From positions 1 through 22,013 of IMG/VR virus record IMGVR_UViG_3300023104_000128: a DNA stretch of 22,013 nucleotides. One strand, given 5' to 3'. Positions 1,284 to 17,287 of the stretch are shown piece after piece. The notes under the pieces were generated by a model, which was not told where the DNA came from, searched no databases, and saw only the letters and a program-made list of their open reading frames with translations. Within the stretch, counting starts at the first letter, position 1. The number at the start of each line of letters is the position of its first letter. This DNA is from a virus. Made by a program: the position numbers and the translations under genes.

Positions 1284-1306
1284 CCACTCAATCGAGTGGT
1301 TTTTTT
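1284..1306 (+). terminator. Intrinsic terminator fused to late promoter P1
   Basis: The stem CCACTC (1284-1289) and GAGTGG (1294-1299) has the four-base loop AATC and is followed by seven Ts (1300-1306). The stem begins immediately after the stop codon of the preceding gene. One base after the T-run comes the TGTCCTATT promoter box, so termination and re-initiation are packed into about 65 bp. Confidence 0.85.
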
Positions 1307-1307: not shown

Positions 1308-1348
1308 TGTCCTATTGTAACGATTTCACACTTTCCATATTTGTGCTA
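1308..1348 (+). promoter_or_regulatory. Predicted phage late promoter P1
   Basis: The box TGTCCTATT (1308-1316) is followed by 19 bp, a -7-like element CATATTTG (1336-1343), four bases and the predicted +1 A at 1348. It is one of six sites with the same box, the same spacing and the same +1 A. It would transcribe the packaging operon starting at 1364, with a 16-base leader. Confidence 0.75.
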
Positions 1349-1363
1349 TAAAAAAATATAGTC

Positions 1364-1585
1364 ATGAAAGATAAATTGAAATTATTCGCGCTGTTCTTTA
1401 TTACTTCTTTTTGGGTTTTTGGATCAATTGAACTTTACTGTTGGTGTTTTGATATTGCCTTTGGAGTTAATGGTTTTATCGAATCATTTATTTTCTTTTT
1501 GTATCTCACAATTTCATTTGCTGTTCTGTTTTTCATTTTTGCCTTTATCCTTGGAATTTATGACTATTATAGAAAAATGGTTTAA
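1364..1585 (+). CDS. Small two-helix membrane protein
   Basis: This 73-residue protein has two hydrophobic segments, roughly residues 5-30 (KLFALFFITSFWVFGSIELY) and 40-66 (ESFIFFLYLTISFAVLFFIF). A lysine-rich N-terminus and a basic C-terminus (YYRKMV) suggest that both ends face the cytoplasm. It is the first gene after promoter P1 and overlaps the next gene by 26 bases, so it is part of the packaging operon. No family is recognised. Its size would suit an accessory holin, an antiholin or a membrane-acting exclusion protein. The recognisable holin is far away at 9731, so none of these is more than a possibility. Confidence 0.6.
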   Translation: MKDKLKLFALFFITSFWVFGSIELYCWCFDIAFGVNGFIESFIFFLYLTISFAVLFFIFAFILGIYDYYRKMV

Positions 1586-2291
1586 TGACGGCTGTGAATA
1601 TGCTTCGGGTGTTCTTATTTATAAAGAACTGCCAAAGCATAATCCTACGCTTTTACGGAATTTTCAAAAGAAACAAAATTCATTCAATGCCGAAAAGCTG
1701 AAATATGAATTAAAGAAGTTTCTGGAAAAATATAGTCAAACGGTTTTTGTTTCAGAAATTAAAAAAGAAGTTGCTGCAGTTGTAAATCTGGTACCGGAAA
1801 AAGTTTCTTCAACTGAGCAAAAAAACGCAGTTTTATTTCATCAACTGCCTGAAGCATTGCGACCTGTATTGCTTGAAGCAAATCAATTGTTTAAAGAAAA
1901 TTGTCTACTAAAAGTCAATCTAAATGAACAGCCAGTACATGCGGAAAAGGCTTGTTTAGCTTTACAAATAAAAATTGATAATAATATAAAAAAGAATGCA
2001 TTGTGTTGGCAAAAGATTGATTTGTATTTAGAAAAACGAATCATTCCGGAATCGCCTGTATCTGAATTCGATGGTTTAACACCAGAAGGAAAATTGCGCA
2101 CTCAGCAATTGCTTTATGCTTCGATATCCAAATTAAACACCAGGTTAAAAGCAAACCGAGAAAAACTGAAAACCTGTGAATTGGTTTCGGTTAAATCTAA
2201 AATTGAGCGTGAAATTTCAAAGCAGGAACAAAACCTTTTGCAGAAAAATGAACAATTAATCCTTATAAGCAATTTGATTGATGGGAACTAA
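1560..2291 (+). CDS. Hypothetical protein upstream of terminase, C-terminal coiled coil
   Basis: This is a 243-residue soluble protein. I place the start at the ATG at 1560 (MTIIEKWFNDGCEYASGVLIY). The frame is open further upstream to 1419, but that extension runs through the membrane protein coded in another frame and is hydrophobic by frame-shadowing. The last third, from about residue 165, is rich in Lys, Glu, Gln and Leu and should form helices or a coiled coil (RLKANREKLKTCELV, then EREISKQEQNLLQKNEQL). Its tail overlaps the small terminase gene by 11 bases. Its position suggests a packaging or head-assembly accessory role. No motif allows a firmer call. Confidence 0.7.
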   Translation: MTIIEKWFNDGCEYASGVLIYKELPKHNPTLLRNFQKKQNSFNAEKLKYELKKFLEKYSQTVFVSEIKKEVAAVVNLVPEKVSSTEQKNAVLFHQLPEALRPVLLEANQLFKENCLLKVNLNEQPVHAEKACLALQIKIDNNIKKNALCWQKIDLYLEKRIIPESPVSEFDGLTPEGKLRTQQLLYASISKLNTRLKANREKLKTCELVSVKSKIEREISKQEQNLLQKNEQLILISNLIDGN

Positions 2292-2868
2292 GAAAAGGGA
2301 AATGATGATTAAACGAGGTGACACCACGTTTGATAAGATTTTGGCTCATTATATCAATCCTGAGCATTTTCCGTTAAGTGAAACGAATCAGGCTATTTTA
2401 TTGCGTTTGAATGAAGTTTTCGCACTTCGTTTGAATCATTTTTCTACACAACAGATCCTGAACAAATTTGAAAAGGAAAAAGGACTATCTCACGCTCAGA
2501 TTTATTTGGATATCCGAAATTCTGAAAAGCTTTTTGGCAATGTAATGAAAGCTGATACAGAAGGCGCGCGTGCTGTCTGGTTAGAATATACTCGGGATTT
2601 CCTGAAACGTTGTAAGCAAAAAGGCGATTTAAATAATGAAGCTAAAGCCTTGAAAATGCTTGCTGATTATGGTGGTTTAGCAAATGAAGATAATCCGAAT
2701 TTCAATCCGGAAAAATTCGAAAACATGGAAATTCATGTTAATGTCGATAAACAAGTCCAGGCAAGACTTTTGGAAATGCTTTCAGGCGGTTCTGTCGATT
2801 TGAATAATTTAAATGTTACCGATATCGACTTTGAAGAATTAAAAACCGACGAAGACGATGATCAGTAA
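2281..2868 (+). CDS. terS: Probable terminase small subunit
   Basis: This is a 195-residue protein starting MGTKKREMMIKRGDTTFDK. The ATG at 2281 is preferred over the adjacent TTG at 2278. It is largely helical, with a central region resembling the DNA-binding part of small terminases (RLNHFSTQQILNKFEKEKGL, helix-turn-helix-like). The C-terminus is very acidic (FEELKTDEDDDQ), as is common where small and large subunits contact. Its 3' end overlaps the start of the large subunit by 11 bases, which is typical translational coupling. In the family the small subunit recognises the packaging site and regulates the ATPase. The call rests mainly on position, size and fold style, since this subunit is poorly conserved. 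Confidence 0.7.
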   Translation: MGTKKREMMIKRGDTTFDKILAHYINPEHFPLSETNQAILLRLNEVFALRLNHFSTQQILNKFEKEKGLSHAQIYLDIRNSEKLFGNVMKADTEGARAVWLEYTRDFLKRCKQKGDLNNEAKALKMLADYGGLANEDNPNFNPEKFENMEIHVNVDKQVQARLLEMLSGGSVDLNNLNVTDIDFEELKTDEDDDQ

Positions 2869-4354
2869 AAAAAAGTTTGTTAGTCTTACTATTCCACAAC
2901 TTGCTTGTGTTTTGGCTCCACAAAAACACAAGGATATTGAAATGGGAAGGGGTGCCGGTAAATCGACAATTATTGGTTATCATAAGCGCGAACTGGTTCG
3001 TCAAATGCCGAAAGCATCGTTTGCTTTGGTTGGTGCAACTTATTCACAAATTCTTAGTAGAACCTTACCGTCTACAATTGAAGGATTGGCAATGTTTAAT
3101 CTATTTCAGGATGTTGATTTTGTTGTTGGTAGATCTGGCAAAAAGATGGGTTTCGAAATGCCTTATCAACCGCCTAACCAATGGGATAATGTAATACATT
3201 TTGCTAATGGATCTATATTTCAATTAGTTTCATTAGATAATCCAAATTCTGGGCGTGGTTTGAATTCTTATGCTGAAGTTGGTGATGAAGCCGCCTTATT
3301 GGATCCTGAAAAATTATTCACTAATGTTAAGACTACCAACAGAGCGCAAAAGGAGATCTTTAAAAATTGTCAGCTTTTAGGATCTGAGTTTTATGTTTCT
3401 TCAACTCCAATCAATAAAAAAGGGAAATGGTTTACTGATCGTGAAAAATTAGCAATTGCCAATCCGAAAGAATATGCATTTATAAAGGCTTCAGCATTAT
3501 CTAATCCTTATCTTAATCCTGCATGGTTTAAGAAAATGAAAGATGCAGCAATATCTGAATTGCTGTATAATGCTGAGATATTAAATATTAGGCCACAGGA
3601 AATTGTTGATGGCTTTTACGGTAATCTTATACCTGCCAAACATTACTACACAGATTATAACAATAGCTATCTGGAAACTATCGGAGTATTGGCAAAAGCT
3701 GAGCATTTCAATTGCAGTCAGGATAATGATGTACGAGCCAATGAACCGCTGATCATGTCTGTTGACTTTGGTGTCTTCAATTGTTGTGTAGTGTCTCAAT
3801 TACAGGATGATGTATACAAGGTGCTAAAGTCTTTTCACGTTAAATCACCTAAGTTATTGGATGATTTGTTTATTGAACAGGTTATACCGTACTATCGCCC
3901 ACATCAGGAAAAGTTTGTTTATTTATATGGCGGGCATGATGGTAACAATCGCTTGCCTAATAGTCCAGATAGTTACTTTCAACAGATTACGAATGTACTT
4001 ATTGCGCATGGCTGGACCGTATACATAATGACCAAAGGAGCGGCGCCGGCACACACCGATAAATATCTTCTTGTCAATGCTATGCTTAAAGAACATCAAA
4101 CCCGATTACCTAAGATTCGTATCAATGAACACAACAATCCGGATCTGATCATTGCGCTCGAAAGAACCGAGGCGCGTGAGTCATTGAATGGTGGTGTCGA
4201 AAAGGTAAAGAAGGATGAACGTAACCCGTTGTTCCCGCAACAACACGCACCACACCTTACCGATGCGCTCGATGTGCCTATTGTAACCATGTTCAATGAC
4301 ATCTTCAAAGGGTTCAATCAACTACTGTCCGAAAGCCGTATTCAGACCTCATAA
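2858..4354 (+). CDS. terL: Terminase large subunit (packaging ATPase and nuclease)
   Basis: This 498-residue motor pumps DNA into the prohead and cuts the concatemer. The ATPase half carries a clear Walker A motif, GRGAGKST, near residues 30-37. A Walker B-like segment ends in Asp-Glu near residues 143-144 (SYAEVGDEAALL), and an SSTP coupling motif lies near 181-184. The C-terminal RNase H-like nuclease half shows the expected spaced acidic residues: Asp near 303 in MSVDFG, Asp near 361 in GGHDG, and Asp near 469 in HLTDALDV. Length and domain order are normal for the family. It is the last gene of the P1 operon and follows terS with an 11-base overlap. Confidence 0.96.
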   Translation: MISKKKFVSLTIPQLACVLAPQKHKDIEMGRGAGKSTIIGYHKRELVRQMPKASFALVGATYSQILSRTLPSTIEGLAMFNLFQDVDFVVGRSGKKMGFEMPYQPPNQWDNVIHFANGSIFQLVSLDNPNSGRGLNSYAEVGDEAALLDPEKLFTNVKTTNRAQKEIFKNCQLLGSEFYVSSTPINKKGKWFTDREKLAIANPKEYAFIKASALSNPYLNPAWFKKMKDAAISELLYNAEILNIRPQEIVDGFYGNLIPAKHYYTDYNNSYLETIGVLAKAEHFNCSQDNDVRANEPLIMSVDFGVFNCCVVSQLQDDVYKVLKSFHVKSPKLLDDLFIEQVIPYYRPHQEKFVYLYGGHDGNNRLPNSPDSYFQQITNVLIAHGWTVYIMTKGAAPAHTDKYLLVNAMLKEHQTRLPKIRINEHNNPDLIIALERTEARESLNGGVEKVKKDERNPLFPQQHAPHLTDALDVPIVTMFNDIFKGFNQLLSESRIQTS

Positions 4355-4548
4355 TCTATGCATTTTCATATATCCTGATTTTTCAGGTTTGGAAAGTGTA
4401 AAAATTTATAGGGACAGGCGTGCTTTTCTGTCAGATTTTATAAAAAATAAATACTTTTTTTAGGTCAAAAAATTGATAATCAATTAAATAAACTTTTAAA
4501 TATTAGAATACATACCCTAAAACATATCAATTAGATAAACAAAAATGC
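4355..4548 (+). other. Intergenic region between packaging and portal operons
   Basis: This is one of the longest non-coding stretches in the window, AT-rich and with no convincing open frame. It holds two weak hairpins. The first is CCTGA/TCAGG with a TTTT loop (4374-4387), followed by only three Ts, and may be a poor terminator for the packaging operon. The second is GACAG/CTGTC (4413-4432) with a 10-base loop, followed by AGATTTTATA. The remainder leads into promoter P2. A short RNA or an operator could lie here, but nothing in the sequence proves it. Confidence 0.4.
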
Positions 4549-4589
4549 TGTCCTATTTTAAAAACGGTCAAAGAATGAATTTTGAACTA
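4549..4589 (+). promoter_or_regulatory. Predicted phage late promoter P2 (leaderless)
   Basis: The box TGTCCTATT (4549-4557), a 19-bp spacer, GAATTTTG (4577-4584) and four bases lead to a predicted +1 A at 4589. That A is the first base of the ATG of the next gene, so the transcript should have no 5' leader. The architecture is identical in spacing to the other five sites. Confidence 0.75.
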
Positions 4590-4933
4590 TGCAAACGGAC
4601 AAAATCTCATTAAAAGAAGGTTTGGAAATTCTAAATCAAAAAGAATCAAAAGGAACTCTTATTCCTTTTGATTTGACTTATAGAACTTTTAATGCTACAT
4701 CCAAAAAAGGCGGGAAACTAAAAACCTATTCCGGAGCCAGACTTCTTTTAGAAAAAAATCCTAATGCCATTCACCGCGATACAATCGAAAACATTTTAGT
4801 TCCAATCAAAAAAACTAAAAATGCAAATCATTTTGATAACAGAACCCGAAACATTCAGCTTCCGGATTACAGTGTTGTTACAATTCGCATCGATTTTATA
4901 ATCAGTATTAATAATAAAGAAATCATTTACTAA
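4589..4933 (+). CDS. Hypothetical 114-residue protein before the portal
   Basis: This is a basic soluble protein, MQTDKISLKEGLEILNQKES onward, with Lys/Asn-rich stretches (KKTKNANHFDNRTRNIQL) and a terminal strand VVTIRIDFIISINNKEIIY. There is no signal peptide or membrane segment. Its stop overlaps the portal ATG by one base (TAATG), so the two are translationally coupled. It is the first gene of the operon driven by P2, and its ATG coincides with the predicted transcription start. A role in head or portal assembly is plausible from position. The family is not recognised. Confidence 0.7.
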   Translation: MQTDKISLKEGLEILNQKESKGTLIPFDLTYRTFNATSKKGGKLKTYSGARLLLEKNPNAIHRDTIENILVPIKKTKNANHFDNRTRNIQLPDYSVVTIRIDFIISINNKEIIY

Positions 4934-6300
4934 TGTCAGACAGCACATTCTTAGGTAATCATATCGCTATCACTCAACACAAAGGATCACCGGCAATGGT
5001 TTCGTTTAAAAACTCCATTGATAAAATGGACGGTACCGTTACAGCCGTAAAAGTTGATGTAAAAGACAAACAGGGTGAAATCGCTTCATGGGGAAAAGCA
5101 AACGATTATCCACAGCAGGTTTTAAAAGAAGTAAAGAAAAACAGCACTGCAGTTTCTGCTTTACGATTTCTAAGAAAAGCACATTACGGAAACGGTCTGG
5201 TTTTATTGAAAAATGAAGTTTCGGTTGATGGAAAGAAAGATCCAAAAGTTGTTGCGCTTAGTGAAGTTCCTGAAATCAATAATTTCTTTCGAACATCACA
5301 AATGAATCGCTTTTGGCAGGAAACAATTACTGATTTAGAATGGTTCGGAATTGGTTTTCCGGAATATATTCTTTCAAATAATTATGCCACAATCAACCGC
5401 GTGAAACGTCAAAAAACTGCATGGTGCCGTTTCGAAATGATGAACGAAGGAAGCGGTTTAGTAGAACACGTTTACATTTCTGAAAAGTTTGGTAAAGGCG
5501 GTTCAGTTGATGTCGCTTCTGAATTCGTAGAAAAAATTCCTTTAATAGATAGTTACTGGTCCGCTGATGAAGTCCGTGAATATTGCAAGGCAAACAAAAT
5601 CACAAAATTCATTCGACCAGTATTCTATCCTTTAATAGATGAAGCCTATTATCCTGAATCCGAATGGCATGCAGTATTAAAATCTGGGTGGTTAGATGTT
5701 GCCAATTCAGTTCCGGCACTTAAAAAAGCATTGTTCGCTAATCAAATGACAATTAAATTTTTGATTGAAATTGACGAACAATACTACACAAACATTTATG
5801 CTGAAGAATGGGCGAAAATGAAAGTCGAGGAGCGTAAAAAGATCAGACAGGATTTAGTTGATGCAATTAATGATGGACTAGTTGGAAACGAAAAAGCCGG
5901 AAAATCAATTCAGGCAATGAAGTACACCAATGCCAAAGGCGAACAGGTTTCTGCAATTACAATCACACCTATTGATGATAAATTAAAAGATGGTGTTTAT
6001 CTGGCTGAAGCAGCTTCTGCAAATTCTGAAACTCTTGTATCAATTGGTGTAGATGCCACTTTAATCGGTGGTGCAGGTATACCGGGCGGTGCTTTGGGTG
6101 CCGGTTCAGGTTCAGACAAGCGCGAAGCCTTTTTAATTCTGCAATCTCTGTACAAAACCAACAGAGAAACCACGCTCGAAATATTCAATTTCATTCAGGA
6201 TTACAACAAATGGGATCCATTAATTGTTGCCGGATTCGAAAACACTGTGTTAACCACACTGGATAAAAACCCAACGGGAATAAAAATCACAACAGCATGA
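4933..6300 (+). CDS. Phage portal protein
   Basis: This 455-residue protein would form the dodecameric ring at the capsid vertex through which DNA passes. Family-like features are the early motif WGKANDYPQQVL (about residues 53-64), the helix SALRFLRKAHYGNGL (about 75-89), and a late Gly-rich loop, GGAGIPGGALGAGSG, near residues 378-392. The loop is followed by a helix of the type seen near the portal wing (REAFLILQSLYKTNRE). The order terminase, small protein, portal supports the call. It overlaps the upstream gene by one base and the downstream gene by four (ATGA). Length is normal for Bacteroidota phage portals. Confidence 0.85.
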   Translation: MSDSTFLGNHIAITQHKGSPAMVSFKNSIDKMDGTVTAVKVDVKDKQGEIASWGKANDYPQQVLKEVKKNSTAVSALRFLRKAHYGNGLVLLKNEVSVDGKKDPKVVALSEVPEINNFFRTSQMNRFWQETITDLEWFGIGFPEYILSNNYATINRVKRQKTAWCRFEMMNEGSGLVEHVYISEKFGKGGSVDVASEFVEKIPLIDSYWSADEVREYCKANKITKFIRPVFYPLIDEAYYPESEWHAVLKSGWLDVANSVPALKKALFANQMTIKFLIEIDEQYYTNIYAEEWAKMKVEERKKIRQDLVDAINDGLVGNEKAGKSIQAMKYTNAKGEQVSAITITPIDDKLKDGVYLAEAASANSETLVSIGVDATLIGGAGIPGGALGAGSGSDKREAFLILQSLYKTNRETTLEIFNFIQDYNKWDPLIVAGFENTVLTTLDKNPTGIKITTA

Positions 6301-7262
6301 TCTTAGAAACCACAGCCGACTTAAAAAAACACGTTTCAGTTGCTCAGTCATTTGAGTTTTCTGATTTCGAGCCATACATTACAAAAGCAGTAAATACATT
6401 CACAAAAAAATATCTGGGTAACCTTCATGTTTTTTTAGCAGATGAATCAGGATCACCAGACATTGCATTCGAAGTAAAAAACGAAGCACGCGAACATTTG
6501 CGTAATGCAATCGCAAACTTCGGAATGTTCATTTATTTTCCGTTCATGTCTGTAATGCTCGACAGTTCCGGAGCAACCGAAGTAAAGAACGAACAACGCC
6601 AAAGAGTAAATTGGGGCACCGAAAAAGACATGCGTAGGGAACTTTTACGCTCCGGACACGAAGCAATGGATTACTTATTAGAGATATTAGAGAAAAACCC
6701 TGATGTATTCGTTGATTGGACAGCAGAATTTGGAACCATAAACAAAAAATTACTAGTCCACAACACTGCAACCTTCAACGAATACTATCATATATTCGAT
6801 TCGCGCCAAACATTTTTAGCCTTACAGCCGTCAATTCGCCAGGTTGAAGATCAGTATATCAAAACAATGCTTTGCCCGGAACTAATTACACATCTAAAAA
6901 CTGATGTTTCAGGCATATCACTTGAAGTAAAAGAGGAATTACAAAAAGCAATTATAGCTTTTACAGTGGCAAAAGTGGCAAACGTAGGTTTGTTTCTTTT
7001 GGATGATACAGGATTGAAAGTAAATTTTGATGTCATGCTTGATGGCCGAAAAGAAAATGTGAGTTACGGAAAAACAGCTGATCAGGTTTCAAAATTAGTC
7101 CAAGAACAATCAAATAACGGTTCGCAATATTTGGCTATGGCCAGACAGTTAATCGAAGATAATATAGCCGACTTCAATCAATGCGAATTACCGTTAAAAA
7201 AATCAAATACAACTGGTACCGGTTACACACCATACGATACACCGGGTATTTTGTCACTTTAA
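6297..7262 (+). CDS. Connector-like phage protein with two related halves
   Basis: This is a 321-residue soluble protein directly downstream of the portal (ATGA overlap). Two segments resemble each other. One is FSDFEPYITKAVNTFTKKYLG leading to NEAREHLRNAIANFGMFIYF and VMLDSSGATEV. The other is QVEDQYIKTMLCPELI leading to VKEELQKAIIAFTVAKVANVG and FLLDDTGLKV. This suggests an internal duplication of a helical domain. Many Bacteroidota phages carry an unnamed protein of this size beside the portal (possibly the DUF6712 group, recalled and not checked). A head-tail connector or head-completion role is inferred from position. Promoter P3 starts three bases after its stop codon. Confidence 0.7.
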   Translation: MILETTADLKKHVSVAQSFEFSDFEPYITKAVNTFTKKYLGNLHVFLADESGSPDIAFEVKNEAREHLRNAIANFGMFIYFPFMSVMLDSSGATEVKNEQRQRVNWGTEKDMRRELLRSGHEAMDYLLEILEKNPDVFVDWTAEFGTINKKLLVHNTATFNEYYHIFDSRQTFLALQPSIRQVEDQYIKTMLCPELITHLKTDVSGISLEVKEELQKAIIAFTVAKVANVGLFLLDDTGLKVNFDVMLDGRKENVSYGKTADQVSKLVQEQSNNGSQYLAMARQLIEDNIADFNQCELPLKKSNTTGTGYTPYDTPGILSL

Positions 7263-7265
7263 GAA

Positions 7266-7306
7266 TGTCCTATTTTAAAACCTCCCAAATCCAGAATTTA
7301 GTCCTA
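7266..7306 (+). promoter_or_regulatory. Predicted phage late promoter P3 (leaderless)
   Basis: The box TGTCCTATT (7266-7274) is followed by 19 bp, GAATTTAG (7294-7301) and four bases, then the predicted +1 A at 7306. As at P2, this is the A of the next ATG. The box begins three bases after the upstream stop codon, with no terminator between, so read-through from P2 is also likely. It would drive the host-recognition, lysis and first tail genes (7306-12669). Confidence 0.75.
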
Positions 7307-8118
7307 TGAGTATTAAAGCATCAAATAACCCGTTTCCGCATGATCCAGACGATAATTTTGCTGATAAATTAGACCGTGGCGGATATGTTGGGACCGCTCA
7401 GGATTTAAAAAATGAAATTGACACCTTCATATATCCGGATAAGATATTAGTAAAAGGAACGATTGTTAAAACAGAAAATAATATTGCTATACCAGCATTA
7501 TCATTTACGTGCAGAATAGATCAGGAAATTTACACAAATACAGAATCATATACCGCTTCAATCAGTTCGGCTACAATTGGTTACCAAAGAATGGATATTT
7601 TAGTTTTTACCAAATATTCTACTATAGTTAAGATACAAGGTCCGGAAGGATTAGAATCTGCACAAGAACCCGCCACGCCAGATGGGACAATTAAAATCGG
7701 CTTTTTTATTATTAACGGAATTAATATTTCAGAACCTGAAATACCTGAAAATGAATTATCTGAAAAAAGAGAATTATTTTTTGCGCTTTCCGATGAAACT
7801 TCAAATTTAACTCTCGGAAACCTTATTTCCTTTAGAATGCCCTTTGCAATGGTTTTAAGTGAGGTTAGAATAAGTGTTAATGAAGCTCCAACAGTCAGCA
7901 GTATTATTGTTGATATCAAAGAATCTGGTGTTTCAATATTTAGTACACGTGTAAGTATTGATGCAACAGAGTTGACAAGCGTAACAGCTGCAACACCGGC
8001 GGTTATTTCAGATCTTAATTTAGCTGATGATGCATTAATTACAATTAGCACAACTCAAATAGGAAGTGGTAATCCTGGTAAAGGGTTGAAAATATTATTT
8101 AAAGGTAGAAAATTATAA
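7306..8118 (+). CDS. Tail fibre or baseplate protein, probable host-recognition role
   Basis: This is a 270-residue protein. The N-terminal part (SNNPFPHDPDDNFADKLDRG) precedes a beta-rich middle of a type seen in phage baseplate and fibre proteins: YQRMDILVFTKYSTIVKIQG, then Gly-Thr-Ile after PATPDG. The C-terminal domain, from about residue 165, looks like an all-beta sandwich (LISFRMPFAMVLSEVRISV through GKGLKILFKG) and could bind a receptor or carbohydrate. It opens the block that includes the PKD/BspA-like protein at 8674. The call is by style and context; no catalytic residues are apparent. Its ATG coincides with the predicted start of transcription from P3. Confidence 0.6.
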   Translation: MSIKASNNPFPHDPDDNFADKLDRGGYVGTAQDLKNEIDTFIYPDKILVKGTIVKTENNIAIPALSFTCRIDQEIYTNTESYTASISSATIGYQRMDILVFTKYSTIVKIQGPEGLESAQEPATPDGTIKIGFFIINGINISEPEIPENELSEKRELFFALSDETSNLTLGNLISFRMPFAMVLSEVRISVNEAPTVSSIIVDIKESGVSIFSTRVSIDATELTSVTAATPAVISDLNLADDALITISTTQIGSGNPGKGLKILFKGRKL

Positions 8119-8137
8119 ATTTTTTAAAATTACATAT

Positions 8138-8689
8138 ATGGTACCAGCGGTTTTAGTTAGAAAAAGTACAAAAGAGATTGTAAAATTTGGAATTTATCCA
8201 AGACAGGATATGCTGCCAATTGAAGATATGGATCCGGATTATGAGTGGATAGTAGAACATATTCCATTTCCAGAACCTGTTTACGATCCAAGGATTTATA
8301 TAATGGTTACAAACTTACCTGATTTGCAGTTGCTGGATTCTTTTGAAGATCATCCTTTATATCCGGGATTGAAAGAATATAGAACAACATATTCACCTGA
8401 AAAAAGGAGCAATCCGGAAATTATTGCATCTATTGATAATGTGGAAAAAGATGCTAACGATTTAATATTAAGCGAATCAGATCGTAATTATAAAATGGTT
8501 TTTATGCTTACAAGTGTTTTGAAAGCATCGAAAGGATTGCAATTGACAGAAACTGAACAGGCTCATATAAATGAGTTAACTGACATTAATATGAAATTGT
8601 CTAAAAATTTAGACAACAGAAACTTATTGGTTGCTCAGGTAGAATCAAATCAAGTACCTAACATCGATTCAGGATGGGAGAGCGTGTAA
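8138..8689 (+). CDS. Hypothetical tail-region protein, possible fibre-assembly factor
   Basis: This is a 183-residue soluble, acidic protein. The N-terminal half has a short beta-type region and a Pro/Asp-rich segment, DYEWIVEHIPFPEPVYDPRIY. The C-terminal half is helical (IIASIDNVEKDANDLILSES, then LTETEQAHINELTDINMKL). It lies between two likely receptor-binding proteins and overlaps the second by 16 bases. Small proteins in that position often help fold or attach fibres, which is the basis for the suggestion. No family motif confirms it. Confidence 0.6.
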   Translation: MVPAVLVRKSTKEIVKFGIYPRQDMLPIEDMDPDYEWIVEHIPFPEPVYDPRIYIMVTNLPDLQLLDSFEDHPLYPGLKEYRTTYSPEKRSNPEIIASIDNVEKDANDLILSESDRNYKMVFMLTSVLKASKGLQLTETEQAHINELTDINMKLSKNLDNRNLLVAQVESNQVPNIDSGWESV

Positions 8690-9720: not shown

Positions 9721-9730
9721 TTTACAAAAC

Positions 9731-10174: not shown

Positions 10175-10175
10175 T

Positions 10176-10682
10176 ATGAAAACTAAAATCACAACAGTTT
10201 CAGGATCACTTTTAAAATTCTTAGAAGGTTTCGAAGATTTCGAAAGCGAACCGTATTTATGTCCGGCCGGAGTTCCTACAATTGGTTTTGGAACAACATT
10301 TTATTTTGATACAAAAAAGTTTGTCACTTTAAAAGACAAGCCAATTACAATCGAAGAAGCAAGGCGTTTAAAACTCGGACACATCAATTCAATATTTGCA
10401 CCTCTGGCGGACAAGCTTTGTCGGGATGATATTAAACAAAATGAATTTGATGCAGTAGTCTCATTTCTTTACAATGCCGGAGCGACTTATAAAGACAAAA
10501 AAGGTGTAGTTCACTATTTCAATATATTCAGACATATAAATGATAAAATGGCCGCATCTGAATTTCGCAAATATTGGCAAACTTTAGCCATAACCGGAGG
10601 TGGTAAAAAACAACCAGGATTAATCAGAAGAAGAAAACGAGAATCCGAAATGTTTATTGATAACACATATAATTCCAATTAA
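10176..10682 (+). CDS. GH24 lysozyme-type endolysin (muramidase)
   Basis: This 168-residue enzyme would cleave the MurNAc-GlcNAc bond of peptidoglycan at the end of infection. The T4/lambdoid lysozyme motif is present: a catalytic Glu (residue 20, in FLEGFED), eight residues later Cys29 (YLCPAG), and five residues later Thr35 (TIGFGTT). This fits the E-8-D/C-5-T triad with Cys in the second place. Further family features are NEFDAVVSFLYNAG and the final KKQPGLIRRRKRESEMF. There is no signal peptide, so export depends on the holin just upstream. Length is normal for a single-domain endolysin. Confidence 0.92.
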   Translation: MKTKITTVSGSLLKFLEGFEDFESEPYLCPAGVPTIGFGTTFYFDTKKFVTLKDKPITIEEARRLKLGHINSIFAPLADKLCRDDIKQNEFDAVVSFLYNAGATYKDKKGVVHYFNIFRHINDKMAASEFRKYWQTLAITGGGKKQPGLIRRRKRESEMFIDNTYNSN

Positions 10683-10684
10683 TC

Positions 10685-11275
10685 ATGAGAAAATATTTAT
10701 TTCTATTTACGTTTATATTTATGTTCCCGACATTCGTGTCGGTAACATCCTGCTCCGCCAGAAAATCAGAAACCGATAAAAAAGAACAATCTACAAAAAC
10801 GGATTATTCAGGAATTTTCAGGAATTCCGGGAATGCTCAGGAATTCCTGAAAACCGATTTAAACATTCAGACAAACTATAAAAATTACTTATTTGATTTA
10901 AGTAAAATCAATTCTTACGAATTCTCATTTGAGCCGGATGACAAAACCAAGCCCGCCACTTATATTGACCCCAATGGACAAAAACATGTTGTTGAAAACG
11001 GAAAGTTGAATTCAAAAAAAACAACTGAAGAAAAAAACATAAAATCTGAAAATTCCGGGAATTCCCAACAAATCCTAAAATCAGAACTCGAAAAGAAATC
11101 AAATTATATAATCCAATTAGAAACATATATAAAAGAGATCAAACGATTGTCAGAAAAAAATAAAAAGACAGAAAAAGAGGGGTTTAGTTTCTGGAATTAC
11201 TTTTTGATATTAATCCCAATCGGTTTAATGATCATTGTCTGGCTTGTATATAAAAAATTAAAATCTGCATCATGA
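10685..11275 (+). CDS. Putative unimolecular spanin (outer-membrane lipoprotein with C-terminal TM helix)
   Basis: This is a 196-residue protein with a lipoprotein signal ending in the lipobox VTSC (Cys23). A polar, Lys-rich periplasmic stretch follows, then a single transmembrane helix near the C-terminus (about residues 169-190, FWNYFLILIPIGLMIIVWLV) and a short basic tail. A lipid anchor at one end and an inner-membrane helix at the other is the hallmark of u-spanins, which bridge and fuse the two membranes in the last step of lysis. Position directly after the holin and endolysin supports this. Residues after the Cys are not acidic, arguing against surface export. Two segments, NSGNAQEFLKTDL and NSGNSQQILKSEL, are internal repeats. 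Confidence 0.7.
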   Translation: MRKYLFLFTFIFMFPTFVSVTSCSARKSETDKKEQSTKTDYSGIFRNSGNAQEFLKTDLNIQTNYKNYLFDLSKINSYEFSFEPDDKTKPATYIDPNGQKHVVENGKLNSKKTTEEKNIKSENSGNSQQILKSELEKKSNYIIQLETYIKEIKRLSEKNKKTEKEGFSFWNYFLILIPIGLMIIVWLVYKKLKSAS

Positions 11276-11457
11276 CCAATAATGAAGAATTATTAAAATT
11301 AAAACTAAAAAAAGCAAATCAGTTTTTAGAAATTGAAATGCTTTCAAGTGTTAACGACTCTGTATATACCAGACTTGGTAAAACACAAGCTGAAATAATG
11401 AAACTTGAAAAAGAGTTACGTAGAGAAAACCAAAACGATCTGGATGAAAACGCTTAA
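11272..11457 (+). CDS. Small charged coiled-coil protein
   Basis: This is a 61-residue soluble protein, rich in Lys, Glu and Leu, that should form one or two long helices (EELLKLKLKKANQFLEIEML, then KTQAEIMKLEKELRRENQ). The start codon overlaps the stop of the spanin-like gene (ATGA). Its 3' end overlaps the next gene by 14 bases, so it is tightly packed and likely translated. It belongs to no family I recognise. It may be a last member of the lysis block or a small tail-assembly partner of the gene at 11444. Confidence 0.6.
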   Translation: MTNNEELLKLKLKKANQFLEIEMLSSVNDSVYTRLGKTQAEIMKLEKELRRENQNDLDENA

Positions 11458-12181
11458 ACTATTTATACCGAAATCGTGGGACGAAATGAACCAAAAGCAG
11501 TTTGAAAAAATTGCTTTTCATTTTAATACAGCAGAAGTTAATGTAAAATTCTACATCAAACTTTTCTTCCTGTTAACCAATGTAAAATGTTGGCAGTTAA
11601 GCAAAAAGGCAAAATTGCGAATTGCATTGCGAACCTGTCCGTTATCTGATCTGCATAAAAGCTATGAATATATTTTCAAGGACAATAACAGGACCATCTT
11701 TCCGGATAATATTAAAATTGGTAAAACCAGATATTTCCCGCCACAAAATAAGGTAGCAAACCTTACTGCAGATGAATTCGCAATTGTAGATGATTTGCAC
11801 ATAAAATGGCGTGAGACAAAAAACATAGAGTATCTGCAATACATGGCAGCGGTTTTGTATGCTGAATCTAAAAACAGAAAAACATTTGATAAAAATGAAT
11901 TGCACGAATTGGCAAAGCCGTTTTCGAAGTTATCTGTAAAAAAATTACTGGCAATTGAACTGGCTTATTTTGGATGCAAAAACAACCTGGTAAAACGCTT
12001 TCCAAAAGCATTCCCAAAACAAAAGCCGGGCGAAGCAAAACCAAAAAAGAAATACGGATTCTCAAAAGTAATCCTGACAATGGCAAAAGGCGACTTGTCA
12101 AAAGTGGACCTTATCAAAAAAGTTAACATCTACACCTTCTTAGAGCAATTCGAAGAAGATTTAACACCGCCAAAAAAATGA
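11444..12181 (+). CDS. Hypothetical protein, possible tail assembly chaperone
   Basis: This is a 245-residue soluble, basic protein. The ATG at 11444 (MKTLKLFIPKSWDEMNQKQF) is chosen over an in-frame TTG at 11405, which would lie well inside the preceding gene. It is mostly helical, with a Lys/Pro-rich linker late in the protein (FPKQKPGEAKPKKKYGF) and an acidic end (TFLEQFEEDLTPPKK). It lies upstream of the tape measure gene in the interval where tail chaperones usually sit. That position and the helical composition are the only support. It overlaps the next gene by four bases (ATGA). Confidence 0.55.
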   Translation: MKTLKLFIPKSWDEMNQKQFEKIAFHFNTAEVNVKFYIKLFFLLTNVKCWQLSKKAKLRIALRTCPLSDLHKSYEYIFKDNNRTIFPDNIKIGKTRYFPPQNKVANLTADEFAIVDDLHIKWRETKNIEYLQYMAAVLYAESKNRKTFDKNELHELAKPFSKLSVKKLLAIELAYFGCKNNLVKRFPKAFPKQKPGEAKPKKKYGFSKVILTMAKGDLSKVDLIKKVNIYTFLEQFEEDLTPPKK

Positions 12182-12669
12182 GACAAGTAACCCACAAACC
12201 AATTGTAGCGTTTCATCAGGAAATTGCAACCGCTCACAAAGAAATAAACGGATTCTATCGTTTTAATTGGAACGAAATTACAGGTCAGTTCCGTTCCGGG
12301 ATTCAAACCCCCGCTTTGCTTTTAGAAAGTCATTCAGCATCTTTAAACACAAATTCAAACAACACGTCTACTTTCAACGGAAGAAACATTTCTTTCATGC
12401 TTCTGGATTTTACCGGAAAAGCAGATTCGTACACCAAACAAGAAGAAGTTCTGGACAAACTCGAAAATGTCGCTTTAGATATTGGTGCATATTTAAAAAA
12501 GCTAAACGGTGATAAAACTTCCTGGCTTTACGGAAAGTTTGATCCTAACAATTTTAGTTACGAAAAAGTGGGGCCGATATTCGATAATATGTATGGATGG
12601 AACGTTTTGTACACACTCAAAAATCACGAGCCGCTTTGCTTCGAACCTGAAAAATGGGAGTTTTTATAA
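12178..12669 (+). CDS. Hypothetical tail protein, possible tail terminator or completion protein
   Basis: This is a 163-residue soluble protein with an alternating helix and strand pattern: an N-terminal helix (VAFHQEIATAHKEIN), central strands (NISFMLLDFTGK), a helix (EEVLDKLENVALDIGAYLKKL), and terminal strands (YGWNVLYTLKNHE). This arrangement and size resemble tail terminator or neck proteins of siphophages, but no diagnostic motif is present. Its ATG overlaps the previous stop by four bases. It ends the P3 operon, and the P4 box begins one base after its stop. Confidence 0.55.
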   Translation: MRQVTHKPIVAFHQEIATAHKEINGFYRFNWNEITGQFRSGIQTPALLLESHSASLNTNSNNTSTFNGRNISFMLLDFTGKADSYTKQEEVLDKLENVALDIGAYLKKLNGDKTSWLYGKFDPNNFSYEKVGPIFDNMYGWNVLYTLKNHEPLCFEPEKWEFL

Positions 12670-12670
12670 C

Positions 12671-12711
12671 TGTCCTATTTTCAGCTTATTGATATAGGTA
12701 GATTTGAATCA
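12671..12711 (+). promoter_or_regulatory. Predicted phage late promoter P4
   Basis: The box TGTCCTATT (12671-12679), a 19-bp spacer, TAGATTTG (12699-12706) and four bases lead to a predicted +1 A at 12711. TAGATTTG matches the Bacteroidota TAnnTTTG -7 consensus exactly, the best match of the six, and so anchors the interpretation of the others. It would give a 20-base leader before the ATG at 12731. Confidence 0.8.
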
Positions 12712-12730
12712 CATTAATTAAATAAAAATT

Positions 12731-13090
12731 ATGAAAAATTTATTTCTCGCAATCTTACTGATTGCTTTCGCACTCCCAACAATGGCAACGCCATTATCCT
12801 TTGTAAAACATACAAAGACAACTTTTCAAAACGAAAGTGTTGTTAAATCAACAATTGTTGGTTTAGAAGTTTTAGATTTTGTATTAGTAACAGCCGTTAT
12901 CAATCAACTTTCAGAAAATCATTCCCTGATGCCCAATTGTTCAGATACTGTAAATTGCGTTTCACTACCTGTACAAAAAGTAAATGATCAGTTTCATGAG
13001 AAAATTAATAATGATAAGAATCTGCAAAACAAAGATTCGGTTCAGGTAAATTTCAACCATGATAAAATAGATCCTTACAATATTATATAA
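12731..13090 (+). CDS. Secreted or membrane hypothetical protein in a single-gene unit
   Basis: This 119-residue protein has a clear signal peptide (MKNLFLAILLIAFALPTMA, with Thr-Met-Ala as a likely cleavage site near residue 19). A second hydrophobic stretch lies around residues 43-59 (VGLEVLDFVLVTAVIN), then a polar tail with two Cys (NCSDTVNC) that could pair in the periplasm. It has its own promoter (P4) and its own terminator (13113-13139) and interrupts the tail genes. This looks like a moron: an accessory gene that may alter the host envelope or block superinfection. That role is inferred; the family is unknown. Confidence 0.6.
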   Translation: MKNLFLAILLIAFALPTMATPLSFVKHTKTTFQNESVVKSTIVGLEVLDFVLVTAVINQLSENHSLMPNCSDTVNCVSLPVQKVNDQFHEKINNDKNLQNKDSVQVNFNHDKIDPYNII

Positions 13091-13112
13091 ACTCGTAAGA
13101 TACAAACCTAAA

Positions 13113-13139
13113 AACCTCTCAATCCTGGGAGGTTTTTTT
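13113..13139 (+). terminator. Intrinsic terminator fused to late promoter P5
   Basis: The stem AACCTCTC (13113-13120) with GGGAGGTT (13127-13134) includes one G-T pair and has the loop AATCCT. Its T-run reaches 13139. The promoter box starts one base later. Stem, loop and T-run are nearly identical to the terminator at 17219-17245. Confidence 0.88.
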
Positions 13140-13140
13140 A

Positions 13141-13181
13141 TGTCCTATTATAACGCATTCAGTACCGATAATTTAGCTAAA
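13141..13181 (+). promoter_or_regulatory. Predicted phage late promoter P5
   Basis: The box TGTCCTATT (13141-13149) is followed by 19 bp, TAATTTAG (13169-13176), four bases and a predicted +1 A at 13181. That gives an 11-base leader before the ATG at 13192. It would drive the tape measure operon. Confidence 0.75.
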
Positions 13182-13191
13182 AAATAAGGCT

Positions 13192-13569
13192 ATGGCAGGT
13201 ACAATTGATGTATTAAATAAAGAAAAGCAAATTTCGGCAATTGCTGTAAAGAAACTTCGTTCAGCGGTTCGCGAACAAATTTCAAAAACTTCTGATGTTA
13301 AGACAGGGCAGGCTGTCCGTGTCGGAGGTGCCGGAAGTCGTTTTAAAAACGGCAGATTACAACGTATTACTATTACTGCACCTCATTATATTTTTAAACA
13401 GAATTACGGTTTTGAGGGCAAAAAATCAAACGGGGTAAACCAAAGATTAAAAGCAACCGATGTCTTTTCAAAAGCAATTGATTCATCTAATATTCTGGAA
13501 AATCTTGCTGATGATATTTCAGAATTACGAATGGAACAAGTAATTGCCTTAACTCAATTTAACCGATAA
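13192..13569 (+). CDS. Small tail-completion-like protein upstream of tape measure
   Basis: This is a 125-residue basic soluble protein. The middle has Gly-rich and strand-forming sequence (QAVRVGGAGSRFKNGRLQRI, then TAPHYIFKQNYGFEG), flanked by helices at both ends. The motif APHYIFKQNYGFEG recalls neck or tail-completion proteins of Bacteroidota phages, but I cannot name the family. The stop codon overlaps the tape measure ATG by one base (TAATG), so the two are coupled. It is the first gene after promoter P5. Confidence 0.6.
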   Translation: MAGTIDVLNKEKQISAIAVKKLRSAVREQISKTSDVKTGQAVRVGGAGSRFKNGRLQRITITAPHYIFKQNYGFEGKKSNGVNQRLKATDVFSKAIDSSNILENLADDISELRMEQVIALTQFNR

Positions 13570-16538
13570 TGGCCAGAAGAGAAATCCCCAGAGAATTATC
13601 AATTTACATAAATGATAAACAAGTAATAAATTCGTTTGCAGGTATTTCACGTGCTATCACTCAAACGAGGGGCGAAATGAATAACCTGAATCGAAATTCA
13701 GCCACTTATAATGAAGACATGGCCAGATTAGGCGGTGAACTTCAGCAATTGACAGAAAGGCAAACTGCTTTTAGAACTGAAATCCGGGAAACGTCCGGGG
13801 CAATGGATGAATCAGCCGGAAGTTTTAAAAAGTTAAGAGATGGTTTATTGTCAGGGGATTTTGTAAGTGCGCGTGAGGGTTTAATGGGTTTAAGGTCAGA
13901 ACTTACTAATCTTATTAAAACTTCTTTAGCTTTTATTGCTACTCCTTTGGGTATGGCAGTTGTCGCTTTGGGAGGGATTGTCGTTGGTACAAAAGCGTTA
14001 TTCGATTTCAATAAAGAATTAGAAATTTCAAACAAATCATTACGATCGTTTGGTGTAGCTGCCGAAGAACTTACAAAAGTACGTTCGGCAATTATGGCAA
14101 CGGCCGAAACCTACGAAAAAGAGTTTGACGAAATTACCGAAAAGGCAAATTCGCTGGCACAATCTTACGGAATTTCAATGCTCGAAGCAAACGAAATTAT
14201 TGCAAAAGGTCTGGCAGAAGGTGGCGCGCAAAACAAAGAATTCTTAGATAGCATTGGCGAATATGATGAGTTTTTTGCAAAAGCAGGATATTCAGCACAG
14301 GAATTTATTGATATTATTAATAGCGGTTCCAGCTTAGGTATTTATGCAGACAAACTGCCAGATGCGCTAAAAGAAGCCGATTTATCCCTGAAAGAACAAA
14401 CTAAAGCAACTCGTGATGCTTTAGAAAATGCCTTCGGTGGTGCTTTTTCAGACCAGTTATTGGCAAAAGTGGCTTCGGGTACAATTACCACCAAAGAAGC
14501 TTTACAGGAAATAGCAAAAGAATCAGCAAAAACACAATTATCCCAACAACAACAGGCACAACTTACGGCTGATATTTTTAAAGGAGCGGGTGAAGATGCC
14601 GGTGGTGCATTAAAGATATTACAGGCTGTTGGCGGAACGGTTAAAACCGAAATGACCGCAGCTGCAAAAGCATCTGATGATTTGCGTGTCGCAAACGAAA
14701 AACTAAACAAAGCACAGGCAGAACTTTTCGAAATAGAAGGGTTTGGCGGAATGTGGGATGCAATAAAGGCACAGGCTACATCTGCTTTCGCTGATATTTT
14801 GACCTACATCAGTGATGTAAAAAAAGACATGGGACCATTAATTGATTTAGTGGGATTTGTGTTTGCTAATGCCTGGCGATTACTGGTAATAGTGATTAAA
14901 CCATTCTTTGAAGGTGTAAAATTAGGAATAAAAGGAATTTCATTCCTTATTGATAGTATTGGTAAGAGTTTCAATTTTTTAAGAGATACACTAATTTCAG
15001 GACTTCAGGCAATCGTTTCCAAAACTTCACCAATTCTAAAAGCGTTGGGTGTTGATGTTGATCAATTACAAAAAAAATTAGAAGCTTTAAAATCAAAAGA
15101 TGTTGTTGTAAAAACCAAAACTACCGAGGAAACGACCACCAAACCTAAAAAAACCGCTGAAGAATTAGCTGAAGAACAGCGACTTTTAAAAGAAGCTTTA
15201 GACAAACAAAAGGCTTTACGTGATGCAGCCAGACAAAAGGAATTAGATGCAGCCCAAAAAGCGCGTGACAAAAAACGTGCTGAAGAAGAAAAGGCTGCAA
15301 AGTTAGAATTAGACAGAATGCTCGCTTTGGCAAAAGCTAAAGCAGATCTGGCCAAAGCCGAATTGAACTTTTTTATTGCCAATGAGCGAAGCAAATTAGA
15401 TTCAACTAAGCAATTAACACCACAAATTATTGCTGAAGAAACAAGCCGTTTAGAAAGAATACTTGATAAACAGCTTACAGCAATGGCTAATGAGCGTTTG
15501 GCACAAGTTGAAAAAGCGGAAGCCGATGCAAAATCAGCTGAGGAATTGGCAATTGTAAAATACACAATTGATTTAGAATATGAAACGCAACGACAAAATT
15601 TACAGTTAGAGTTTCAGCAAACTACAGATGCCTTAAAAAAGGAATATGAAGCTGAGCAAAAAGTTTTAGCTGCTGAACAATTACAAGCGGATAATGAATT
15701 GGCTTTGATGGAAGCGGATAATTCTTTCGAAGCCGGTAAAATAAAACAACAACAAGATTATCAGTCACAATTAGCAGGATATAAAAAGCTTCTGGATGAC
15801 AAAAAAATAACCGAAAGTGAATATATTAGATTTAAAGATGCTGCTGAAAAGCAACAGGCTGAAATTGACAGACAAAGAGAAATAAATAAAGTTAATGCAA
15901 GTTTAAATGCTTTCGGACAATTAGCAGGTGCATTAGGTGAATTATTTGGACAATCTAAAGAATTAGCAATTACACAGGCAGGGATAAACGGAGCATTAGC
16001 AATCACTTCTATATTATCTGCACCTTCAATGGGAAATCCTATTTTGGATGCAGCTGTAAAAGCTGTTCAAATCGCTGCAACTGTAGTTTCAGTCGCTGCT
16101 CAGGTAAAACAGATAACAAAAGCAAAAGCACCTAAAAAACCAAAGTTCTATGATGGTGGTTTCACAGGTGATAATGCAATTGGTTATGATCAATACGGTA
16201 AAATTGTAGGTGATGTTCATGATAATGAATATGTGATACCAAAAGCCATGACTCAAAGCCCTCGTTATGCAAATACAATTGCATGGCTTGAAGCAGAAAG
16301 AACAGGTAAATCTTCAAGGAAATTCGCTGAAGGTGGTGCATCATCTTCAAATATGATTCCTGAATTAGTTATGAACGAAAATGATGCAGAAATGAAAGGA
16401 TTACTGCGTGCATTGCTTTATAGGTTAGATAATCCAATTACTCCAAATCTTATTTTTGGCTATGATCAGGCAAAAGCGGTTGAAGATTTGAATAGTGAAC
16501 GTGTAGCGTCTGAACAAAATGCAACGGTTAATGAATAA
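13569..16538 (+). CDS. Tail tape measure protein
   Basis: This 989-residue protein would set tail length and be ejected with the DNA. It has the classical layout. The N-terminal helical region has heptad character. A hydrophobic segment lies at about residues 116-147 (LAFIATPLGMAVVALGGIVV), and another hydrophobic region at about 420-470 (PLIDLVGFVFANAWRLLVIV). A long Lys/Glu/Ala coiled coil runs over about residues 510-780. A C-terminal module follows, with YDGGFTGDN then GDVHDNEYVIPK near residues 860-895, which is common at the end of tape measure proteins. Being the longest gene, upstream of the distal tail genes, agrees with this. Expected tail length by the usual rule is roughly 140-150 nm. 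Confidence 0.95.
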   Translation: MARREIPRELSIYINDKQVINSFAGISRAITQTRGEMNNLNRNSATYNEDMARLGGELQQLTERQTAFRTEIRETSGAMDESAGSFKKLRDGLLSGDFVSAREGLMGLRSELTNLIKTSLAFIATPLGMAVVALGGIVVGTKALFDFNKELEISNKSLRSFGVAAEELTKVRSAIMATAETYEKEFDEITEKANSLAQSYGISMLEANEIIAKGLAEGGAQNKEFLDSIGEYDEFFAKAGYSAQEFIDIINSGSSLGIYADKLPDALKEADLSLKEQTKATRDALENAFGGAFSDQLLAKVASGTITTKEALQEIAKESAKTQLSQQQQAQLTADIFKGAGEDAGGALKILQAVGGTVKTEMTAAAKASDDLRVANEKLNKAQAELFEIEGFGGMWDAIKAQATSAFADILTYISDVKKDMGPLIDLVGFVFANAWRLLVIVIKPFFEGVKLGIKGISFLIDSIGKSFNFLRDTLISGLQAIVSKTSPILKALGVDVDQLQKKLEALKSKDVVVKTKTTEETTTKPKKTAEELAEEQRLLKEALDKQKALRDAARQKELDAAQKARDKKRAEEEKAAKLELDRMLALAKAKADLAKAELNFFIANERSKLDSTKQLTPQIIAEETSRLERILDKQLTAMANERLAQVEKAEADAKSAEELAIVKYTIDLEYETQRQNLQLEFQQTTDALKKEYEAEQKVLAAEQLQADNELALMEADNSFEAGKIKQQQDYQSQLAGYKKLLDDKKITESEYIRFKDAAEKQQAEIDRQREINKVNASLNAFGQLAGALGELFGQSKELAITQAGINGALAITSILSAPSMGNPILDAAVKAVQIAATVVSVAAQVKQITKAKAPKKPKFYDGGFTGDNAIGYDQYGKIVGDVHDNEYVIPKAMTQSPRYANTIAWLEAERTGKSSRKFAEGGASSSNMIPELVMNENDAEMKGLLRALLYRLDNPITPNLIFGYDQAKAVEDLNSERVASEQNATVNE

Positions 16539-16545
16539 TATTTTG

Positions 16546-16553
16546 TAGGTTTG
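16546..16553 (+). promoter_or_regulatory. Possible host-type -7 element before the second secreted protein
   Basis: TAGGTTTG is an exact match to the Bacteroidota TAnnTTTG element and lies 26 bases before the ATG at 16580. Unlike the six phage promoters, it has no TGTCCTATT box at the required distance, and I see no clear TTG-type -33 element either. It may give the following gene independent, host-driven expression. Confidence 0.3.
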
Positions 16554-16579
16554 ATACTATAACTTTAAAAATAAAAATC

Positions 16580-17179
16580 ATGAAAAAAATTATTTTGCTG
16601 ATCCTGTTGTTTTCTTCTATATTGACTTATTCACAGGAAAAATTTGACTCTTATAATAGTTCATATTTCAAAAAAGATTTTCCTATTTTAATTGCTGAGA
16701 AAAATGACAAAAGCATTCAGTTTTATATTGATGTAAATTCGATGGATAAATCAAGTAAAACAGCAATGCTTGTTTTAGATTCAAAAAGTATTGATGAATT
16801 TAAAACTATGGTGTTGAGTTTAAAAGATATATATATCAAGTGGAAAAAGACCGCAGTTGACAATAAAGTTACTGAGTTAGATAAAGCTGTAGAAGATAAA
16901 AGAATTTCTGTTACGTCAGCTTTTAATTATGGAAAATGGAATTTTGACTTTAGCACTCAATTAACGGCTAAATTTAAAATCATAAATAATATACCATTAA
17001 TGATTATCGAAAGCGATGGTTTAGAATCTTCCAGCAATAAATTTATTAAAAGTGACGGGTTTGTAATTGTATTTGCTTTAGATAATGAGTTTGATGCTTT
17101 GGTTTCTAAAATAGATTTAACCAAAGCAAATGATTATTTTGCTAAAAAAAGTGGTAAAGAAGATTTATTTAAAAATTAA
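16580..17179 (+). CDS. Secreted hypothetical protein, probable moron
   Basis: This 199-residue protein has a typical Bacteroidota signal peptide, MKKIILLILLFSSILTYSQ, with cleavage expected around residues 17-19 before EKFDSY. The mature part looks like a compact alpha/beta domain (IQFYIDVNSMDKSSKTAMLV, then FKIINNIPLMIIESDGLE, then GFVIVFALDNEFDALV) without a catalytic motif I recognise. It lies between the tape measure and the distal tail gene and is closed by its own terminator. No tail protein would need a signal peptide, so an accessory function in the lysogen or in infected-cell envelope change is inferred. Confidence 0.6.
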   Translation: MKKIILLILLFSSILTYSQEKFDSYNSSYFKKDFPILIAEKNDKSIQFYIDVNSMDKSSKTAMLVLDSKSIDEFKTMVLSLKDIYIKWKKTAVDNKVTELDKAVEDKRISVTSAFNYGKWNFDFSTQLTAKFKIINNIPLMIIESDGLESSSNKFIKSDGFVIVFALDNEFDALVSKIDLTKANDYFAKKSGKEDLFKN

Positions 17180-17218
17180 TAATTCAAACTTCCACCAAAT
17201 GGTGATATCTTAATTCAA

Positions 17219-17245
17219 AACCTCTCAATCCTGAGAGGTTTTTTT
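17219..17245 (+). terminator. Intrinsic terminator fused to late promoter P6
   Basis: A perfect 8-bp stem, AACCTCTC (17219-17226) with GAGAGGTT (17233-17240), has the loop AATCCT and a T-run through 17245. It is nearly identical to the terminator at 13113-13139, from which it differs by one base in the stem. The P6 box follows one base later. Confidence 0.92.
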
Positions 17246-17246
17246 A

Positions 17247-17287
17247 TGTCCTATTATTCACGATCCAACTCCAATAAATTCGTAGAA
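17247..17287 (+). promoter_or_regulatory. Predicted phage late promoter P6
   Basis: The box TGTCCTATT (17247-17255), 19 bp, TAAATTCG (17275-17282) and four bases lead to a predicted +1 A at 17287. That gives a 14-base leader before the ATG at 17301. It would drive the distal tail operon to 20837. Confidence 0.72.

Follow-up and report, generated by a model that had tools for sequence, protein, structure and literature searches.

Bacteroidota possess a divergent primary sigma factor and lack Shine-Dalgarno sequences, which makes the takeover of gene expression by their phages a question of interest. In the open-access literature searched, neither a late promoter of the type considered here nor any late activator was described for flavobacterial phages. 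The host promoter read by sigma-A (sigma-ABfr) consists of a -33 TTTG and a -7 TAnnTTTG element, the latter located at -12 to -5 and separated from the transcription start by approximately 4 nt (PMC6847099, PMC9723704). Among phage systems, the T4 middle promoters are activated by the small monomeric MotA protein, which reads a box replacing the -35 element (PMC2988021). In phage Mu, several late operons are under the control of one phage activator, C, the binding site of which overlaps the -35 element at mom (PMC4461284). Ltr of the S. aureus phage phi13 is described as a phage-encoded regulator of phage assembly genes (PMC13123087).

The locus studied here is a virus record of 22,013 bases (the whole stretch that was analysed, referred to as the window), in which a 9-mer, TGTCCTATT, is repeated upstream of a -7-like element. 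A literature search for the 9-mer returned unrelated papers only. The phage sites match the Bacteroidota sigma-A promoter in the position of the -7 element and its distance to the start, but carry a strict, phage-specific 9-mer in place of the -33 half and a free first base of the -7 element. No such motif is among the six promoter classes mapped in F. psychrophilum, as described in the main text of that study (PMC9723704). The likeness to T4 middle promoters is one of architecture only, namely a host -10-type element combined with a short asymmetric box of the phage in the place of the -35 element; the MotA box is centred at -30, approximately 12 bp from the -10 element, whereas the centre of the phage box lies at approximately -36, with 19 bp to the -7 element, and the host sigma factor differs. 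No MotA or AsiA homologue was present among the PHROG/Pfam hits of the scanned proteins. The Mu late promoters are similar in that several late operons answer to one phage activator, but Mu C acts as a dimer and the phage box is a 9-mer without dyad symmetry; the family hits contained no Mor/C match. Since box position, spacing and protein families differ, we do not claim membership in the T4 middle or Mu C class. The likeness to Ltr is by analogy only, and the host phylum differs.

Six spaced repeats in the window

The record encodes TerL, portal, endolysin, tape measure and tail proteins, as well as a minus-strand tyrosine integrase, and represents part of a Flavobacterium siphovirus of the prophage type. 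Its left end lies inside the gene preceding 314-877. What lies upstream in relatives, namely the first late promoter, the genes on the capsid side and the entire early region, is thus missing from the window. When TerL was used as a query, relatives with 59-92% identity were found in F. urumqiense, F. sp. LC2016-23, F. erciyesense, a Flavobacterium MAG and IMG/VR contigs. The nearest isolated phage was Polaribacter phage Leef_1 of the Helgolandviridae (TerL identity 50%), in which approximately 20 gene families of the window's phage family were found again. The genes shared with Leef_1, among them TerL, portal, capsid and tail genes, indicate that the window's phage family is Helgolandviridae-like. 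At the very left end of the record (1-136), the gene preceding that of a 187-aa protein contains 15 perfect 9-bp tandem repeats (TCAACTGAA, encoding Ser-Thr-Glu), and members of the same family in relatives carry other low-complexity repeats (AEKAAADKAEA, QETQS).

The original prediction, made from the sequence of the window, described six intergenic copies of TGTCCTATT as parts of a dedicated late promoter. All six were recovered as exact matches on the plus strand (Table 1), and the minus strand of the window contained no exact copy. The described geometry was reproduced at every site: 19 bp follow the 9-mer, then an 8-mer with A at position 2, TT at positions 5-6 and G at position 8, then four bases and an A (the predicted +1). 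None of the six sites lies within a same-strand ORF, and the gene starts, expected 0-20 nt past +1, were measured at 16, 0, 0, 20, 11 and 14 nt for sites 1-6. A constant T two bases 3' of the box (TGTCCTATTnT), absent from the original prediction, was additionally seen at the window sites. In 300 dinucleotide shuffles, any one 9-mer at N19 before.A..TT.G reached at most three copies (three once), compared to the six observed, and exact TGTCCTATT never occurred more than twice. When spacer lengths from 10 to 31 were scanned, the -7 match appeared at 19 alone. A scan of the window for sigma-70-type promoters gave no excess over shuffles.

Table 1. Features of the window; transcription starts (+1) are predicted
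Feature	Position	Strand	Elements or evidence
Predicted late promoter 1	1308..1348	+	box 1308-1316; -7 CATATTTG 1336-1343; +1 A 1348
Predicted late promoter 2	4549..4589	+	box 4549-4557; -7 GAATTTTG 4577-4584; +1 = A of ATG 4589
Predicted late promoter 3	7266..7306	+	box 7266-7274; -7 GAATTTAG 7294-7301; +1 = A of ATG 7306
Predicted late promoter 4	12671..12711	+	box 12671-12679; -7 TAGATTTG 12699-12706; +1 A 12711
Predicted late promoter 5	13141..13181	+	box 13141-13149; -7 TAATTTAG 13169-13176; +1 A 13181
Predicted late promoter 6	17247..17287	+	box 17247-17255; -7 TAAATTCG 17275-17282; +1 A 17287
Intrinsic-terminator-like hairpin, T run abutting box 1	1282..1301	+	hairpin scan
Terminator-like hairpin (AAAACCTC...GAGGTTTT) abutting box 5	13111..13136	+	read from sequence; absent from hairpin scan list
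Terminator-like hairpin abutting box 6	17217..17242	+	hairpin scan
Large terminase (TerL)	2858..4354	+	PHROG terminase E 3.6e-13
Tail tape measure protein	13569..16538	+	
Tyrosine integrase, right end, prophage type	20853..22013	-	

The first site precedes a gene at 1364-1585, followed by an operon comprising a 243-aa gene (1560-2291), a TerS-like gene and TerL. Where relatives lack the small 73-aa ORF, the 243-aa gene has its ATG exactly at the +1 of this promoter. Sites 2 and 3 precede a 114-aa gene (before portal) and a gene of the tail-fibre region, respectively, and both transcripts are predicted to be leaderless. Downstream of sites 4, 5 and 6 lie a small secreted protein gene (12731-13090), a neck-like gene (13192) with the tape measure gene, and the tail genes (17301-20837). 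A plain host-type -7 element without a TGTCC box (TAGGTTTG, 16546-16553) was also found 5' of 16580-17179, which encodes a 199-aa secreted protein and looks like independently expressed cargo within the late region.

Geometry, phage restriction and orientation of the sites in relatives

Most relatives carry four to six units of TGTCCTATT-N19-NAnnTTnG each, situated at syntenic late-operon starts and having non-conserved spacers. A site set was assembled from 19 prophages or contigs, of which 14 contain TGTCCTATT, one is G136 and four are divergent, with TGTCCTTTT instead. A..TT was present at N19 in 101 of the 114 box copies, and these 101 sites, selected for A-11, T-8 and T-7, were described further. 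Relative to the +1 A, the box spans -40 to -32 and the -7 element -12 to -5, with a free first base (C, G, T or A), G-5 in 81 sites and T-6 in 55; A occupied +1 in 79. The extended box consensus was TGTCCTWTTTTAAAA. Between -40 and -26 the consensus reads TGTCCTATTTTAAAA and contains no TTTG, in agreement with the original proposal that the 9-mer stands in place of the usual -33 box. The -33 TTTG element is weak in F. johnsoniae as well, and the -7 element of this species occupies the same position, the start site following after 4-5 nt (PMC6847099). The position of the F. psychrophilum -7 element also agrees with -12 to -5 (PMC9723704).

None of the 101 sites was inside a same-strand ORF of at least 100 aa, and 98 were followed within 160 nt by an ATG-initiated ORF. 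At 39 sites the ATG fell exactly on the predicted +1. This placement was characteristic of three gene families, at all 18 sites of the 114-aa gene family, all six of the tail-fibre-region family and 10 of 12 in the third, and several late mRNAs are therefore predicted to be leaderless, in contrast to F. psychrophilum, in which leaderless mRNAs constitute 5.5% of those mapped (PMC9723704). At least seven T residues occurred in the 10 bases before the box at 39 of the 101 sites, versus 2% of window positions. The location of boxes directly after T runs, along with the three window boxes abutting terminator-like hairpins, suggests that transcription is stopped and started anew at individual operons.

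The motif search over host genomes suggested in the original prediction was carried out on four Flavobacterium genomes (3.4-5.4 Mb). The spaced unit was found in the prophage only, with 6, 6, 3 and 5 units per prophage and 0-1 for the reversed control pattern. Occurrence of the 9-mer across the host chromosome, named beforehand as contrary evidence, was likewise looked for; the bare 9-mer stood there at approximately control level and the spaced unit was confined to the prophage. This confinement makes a host regulon unlikely, and the protein reading the box should be phage-encoded.

Three relatives (G286, G298 and G113) have an inverted TerS/TerL module preceded by a minus-strand box, which stands back to back with the plus-strand box belonging to the next operon (AGGACA-N9-TGTCCT). 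G003 and G009 have an inverted tail module, likewise with a minus-strand box. Because the box inverts together with its module, a directional promoter explains its orientation, and a packaging or recombination mark does not. The phage-restricted distribution, the fixed geometry relative to a host-type -7 element, the intergenic placement, the location at late-operon starts and the behaviour of inverted modules, all obtained, like the conservation, by comparison, fit the dedicated late promoter originally proposed. We infer that the six sites very likely function as phage late promoters in vivo. As a separate observation, the predicted back-to-back promoters, AAAAGGACA-N9-TGTCCTTTT, form one 30-bp stretch (L192-L197; oriented position 14773-14783 in G298) that would serve both the inverted TerS/TerL module and the portal operon.

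Candidate readers of the box

A conserved phage regulator was sought in the motif-bearing genomes, as had been recommended, and two candidates emerged, F12 and the LuxR/GerE-type F22. F12 is an uncharacterised family of approximately 155 aa and, like F22, is among the families common to the complete relatives. Its gene lies outside the window, after the early operon; F17 separates it from the first late box, which follows approximately 550 bp further on. F12 usually has its own -7 element and no perfect box, and in several phages a -7-like element lies approximately 30 bp before the ATG. A perfect box is located 5' of F12 in G113 and a near-perfect one in G002, G007 and G009, and the F12-holding operon of G136 starts with a box; this would be expected for feedback or autoregulation. 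F17 (L152:4890-5360) is itself a conserved protein of approximately 156 aa found at this place in nearly all these phages. It was dropped as a candidate regulator, as it looks structural, was not found in G298 and sits between F12 and the first box.

Among 299 Flavobacteriaceae genomes, F12 was present in six, and box clusters with different spacers were found in exactly these six genomes, with TGTCCTATT in two and TGTCCTTTT in four. The latter box was obtained by de novo search and pattern scan and showed the same spacing and places as TGTCCTATT. F12-negative genomes with three hits contained no cluster with independent spacers. One of them, G254, had three spaced TGTCCTTTTTT hits within 11 kb and was rejected, since the spacers are nearly identical and the hits are thus copies of one repeat, not independent promoters. 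F12 accompanies the phage family as a whole, so that its co-occurrence is not by itself enough to identify it as the reader. A profile scan with F12 alone yielded 43 viral loci, in which TGTC was the top of the 256 4-mers at this spacing, both in the near set (12.2% versus 2.9% for the next 4-mer) and in the far set (5.2% versus 1.9%). In three high-GC loci (L213, L214 and L216), F12 was present and the TGTC box at this spacing was absent. The A/T letter of the box was strongly clustered on the F12 tree (5 changes versus 18.8 when shuffled, a difference to which near-copies contribute), and the box variants segregate with F12 clades. From these comparisons we infer that F12 is likely the protein that reads the box.

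Searches for F12 in Pfam, NCBIfam, PHROGs and PDB sequences gave nothing usable, including no significant match to a ribbon-helix-helix (RHH) family. A tblastn search of the phage collection with one F12 sequence found no match, and the profile later found gp39 of Leef_1. Two structure models (pLDDT 81.5 and 87.6) displayed beta-alpha-alpha twice in one chain, followed by two helices. Chains of TraY of the F plasmid ranked first in VIA for model 1 and in Foldseek for model 2, at weak scores (Z 4.1 over 88 residues and Z 4.0; Foldseek E 0.79). Other folds (DdmD, cullins) reached similar Z in VIA-align, which makes the resemblance to TraY only a lead; a TraY-like, single-chain RHH fold is weakly predicted for F12. 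In TraY, which is monomeric, a single chain holds the complete RHH dimer fold (PMC12117103). F12 resembles TraY in the predicted beta-alpha-alpha order occurring twice per chain and differs in an extra C-terminal helical part and in having no sequence similarity. If the weakly scored fold is right, a single-chain RHH protein would be well matched to a 9-mer that is non-palindromic and has a fixed direction.

F22, encoded early beside cro, is the main rival to F12 because it occurs in almost all F12-positive phages with the early region present; were it the reader, F12 would be a mere neighbour gene. It has a GerE domain (Pfam E 2e-15). GerE proteins are usually dimers on dyad sites, however, and the box is a single non-palindromic 9-mer; moreover, F22 is located approximately 11 kb from the late genes, in contrast to F12, which lies directly before them. 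Some records, possibly truncated on that side, have F12 and boxes with no F22 match. We consider it unlikely that F22 reads the box.

Still less probable is recognition by a phage-modified RNA polymerase or an alternative sigma factor, with no separate DNA-binding activator. The box is located where sigma region 4 would bind, and T4 appropriates sigma in this way with the help of AsiA (PMC2988021). Nevertheless, the -7 half is a sigma-A element, the protein scans recognised no full sigma-factor gene, and the bare box has no host regulon. The original prediction had left two options for a factor encoded outside the window: the phage activator has gained a candidate in F12, and altered sigma specificity is disfavoured by the ordinary sigma-A character of the -7 half. 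That the repeats are a non-promoter signal (terminator tail, packaging, recombination or repressor site) lying between operons by chance is very improbable, for although several copies abut terminator-like hairpins, many have no hairpin, and the fixed 19-bp gap to a host -7 element, the A at +1, the ATG at +1 in several families and the module-following strand all speak against it.

We consider it reasonably probable that the six sites represent one class of activator-dependent late promoter, in which host sigma-A reads the -7 element and F12 reads the box. Host RNA polymerase carrying the Bacteroidota primary sigma factor would recognise NAnnTTnG (-12 to -5) as usual, and the TGTCCTATT(nT) box, located at -40 to -32, would replace the -33 element and be bound by the phage protein. 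Early transcription would produce F12, which, on the box of each late promoter, would hold a sigma-A polymerase lacking its normal -33 contact, so that in a temperate flavobacterial siphovirus the operons for head, lysis and tail would be switched on together. As a single-chain RHH protein, F12 might attach to the non-palindromic box as a single monomer, with its C-terminal helices holding RNA polymerase, and part of the late mRNAs would begin exactly at AUG. This family of flavobacterial phages has one short DNA signal before each virion-building operon and probably a single small phage protein that switches all of them on with the host polymerase. A box and one small gene would constitute a directly testable switch and an example of phage transcription takeover in Bacteroidota, with a candidate function for the orphan family F12. 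The box could also serve as a marker for finding such phages and late operons in metagenomes and, possibly, as an inducible expression part for Bacteroidota.

Box variants in named phages

The isolated phage Leef_1 carries TGTCCTTTT sites, its F12 being gp39. Ingeline_1 and 6H had no recurrent box above shuffles. In the Duneviridae, laban6-1 (L201) contains five copies of TGTCACAA, all on the late strand and N19 from the -7 element, and 23T (L202) contains four copies of TGTCTTAA at a spacing of 18. In both phages the first box directly follows a distant F12 homologue (profile comparison probability 95%). We tentatively suggest, as a possibility that falls somewhat short of being probable, that at least two families of temperate Bacteroidota phages share an ancient late-gene switch, in which a monomeric single-chain RHH activator at the -33 region would appropriate sigma-A, the boxes (TGTCCTATT, TGTCCTTTT, TGTCACAA and TGTCTTAA) would co-evolve with it, and key head and tail mRNAs would be leaderless. 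Downstream of F12 in two of the high-GC loci (L214 and L216), a doubled GTCCTTTCC is common to both at syntenic spacing and is possibly a further box variant. The Duneviridae boxes TGTCACAA and TGTCTTAA represent a recurrent late box of their own, with the same architecture as in the window's family.
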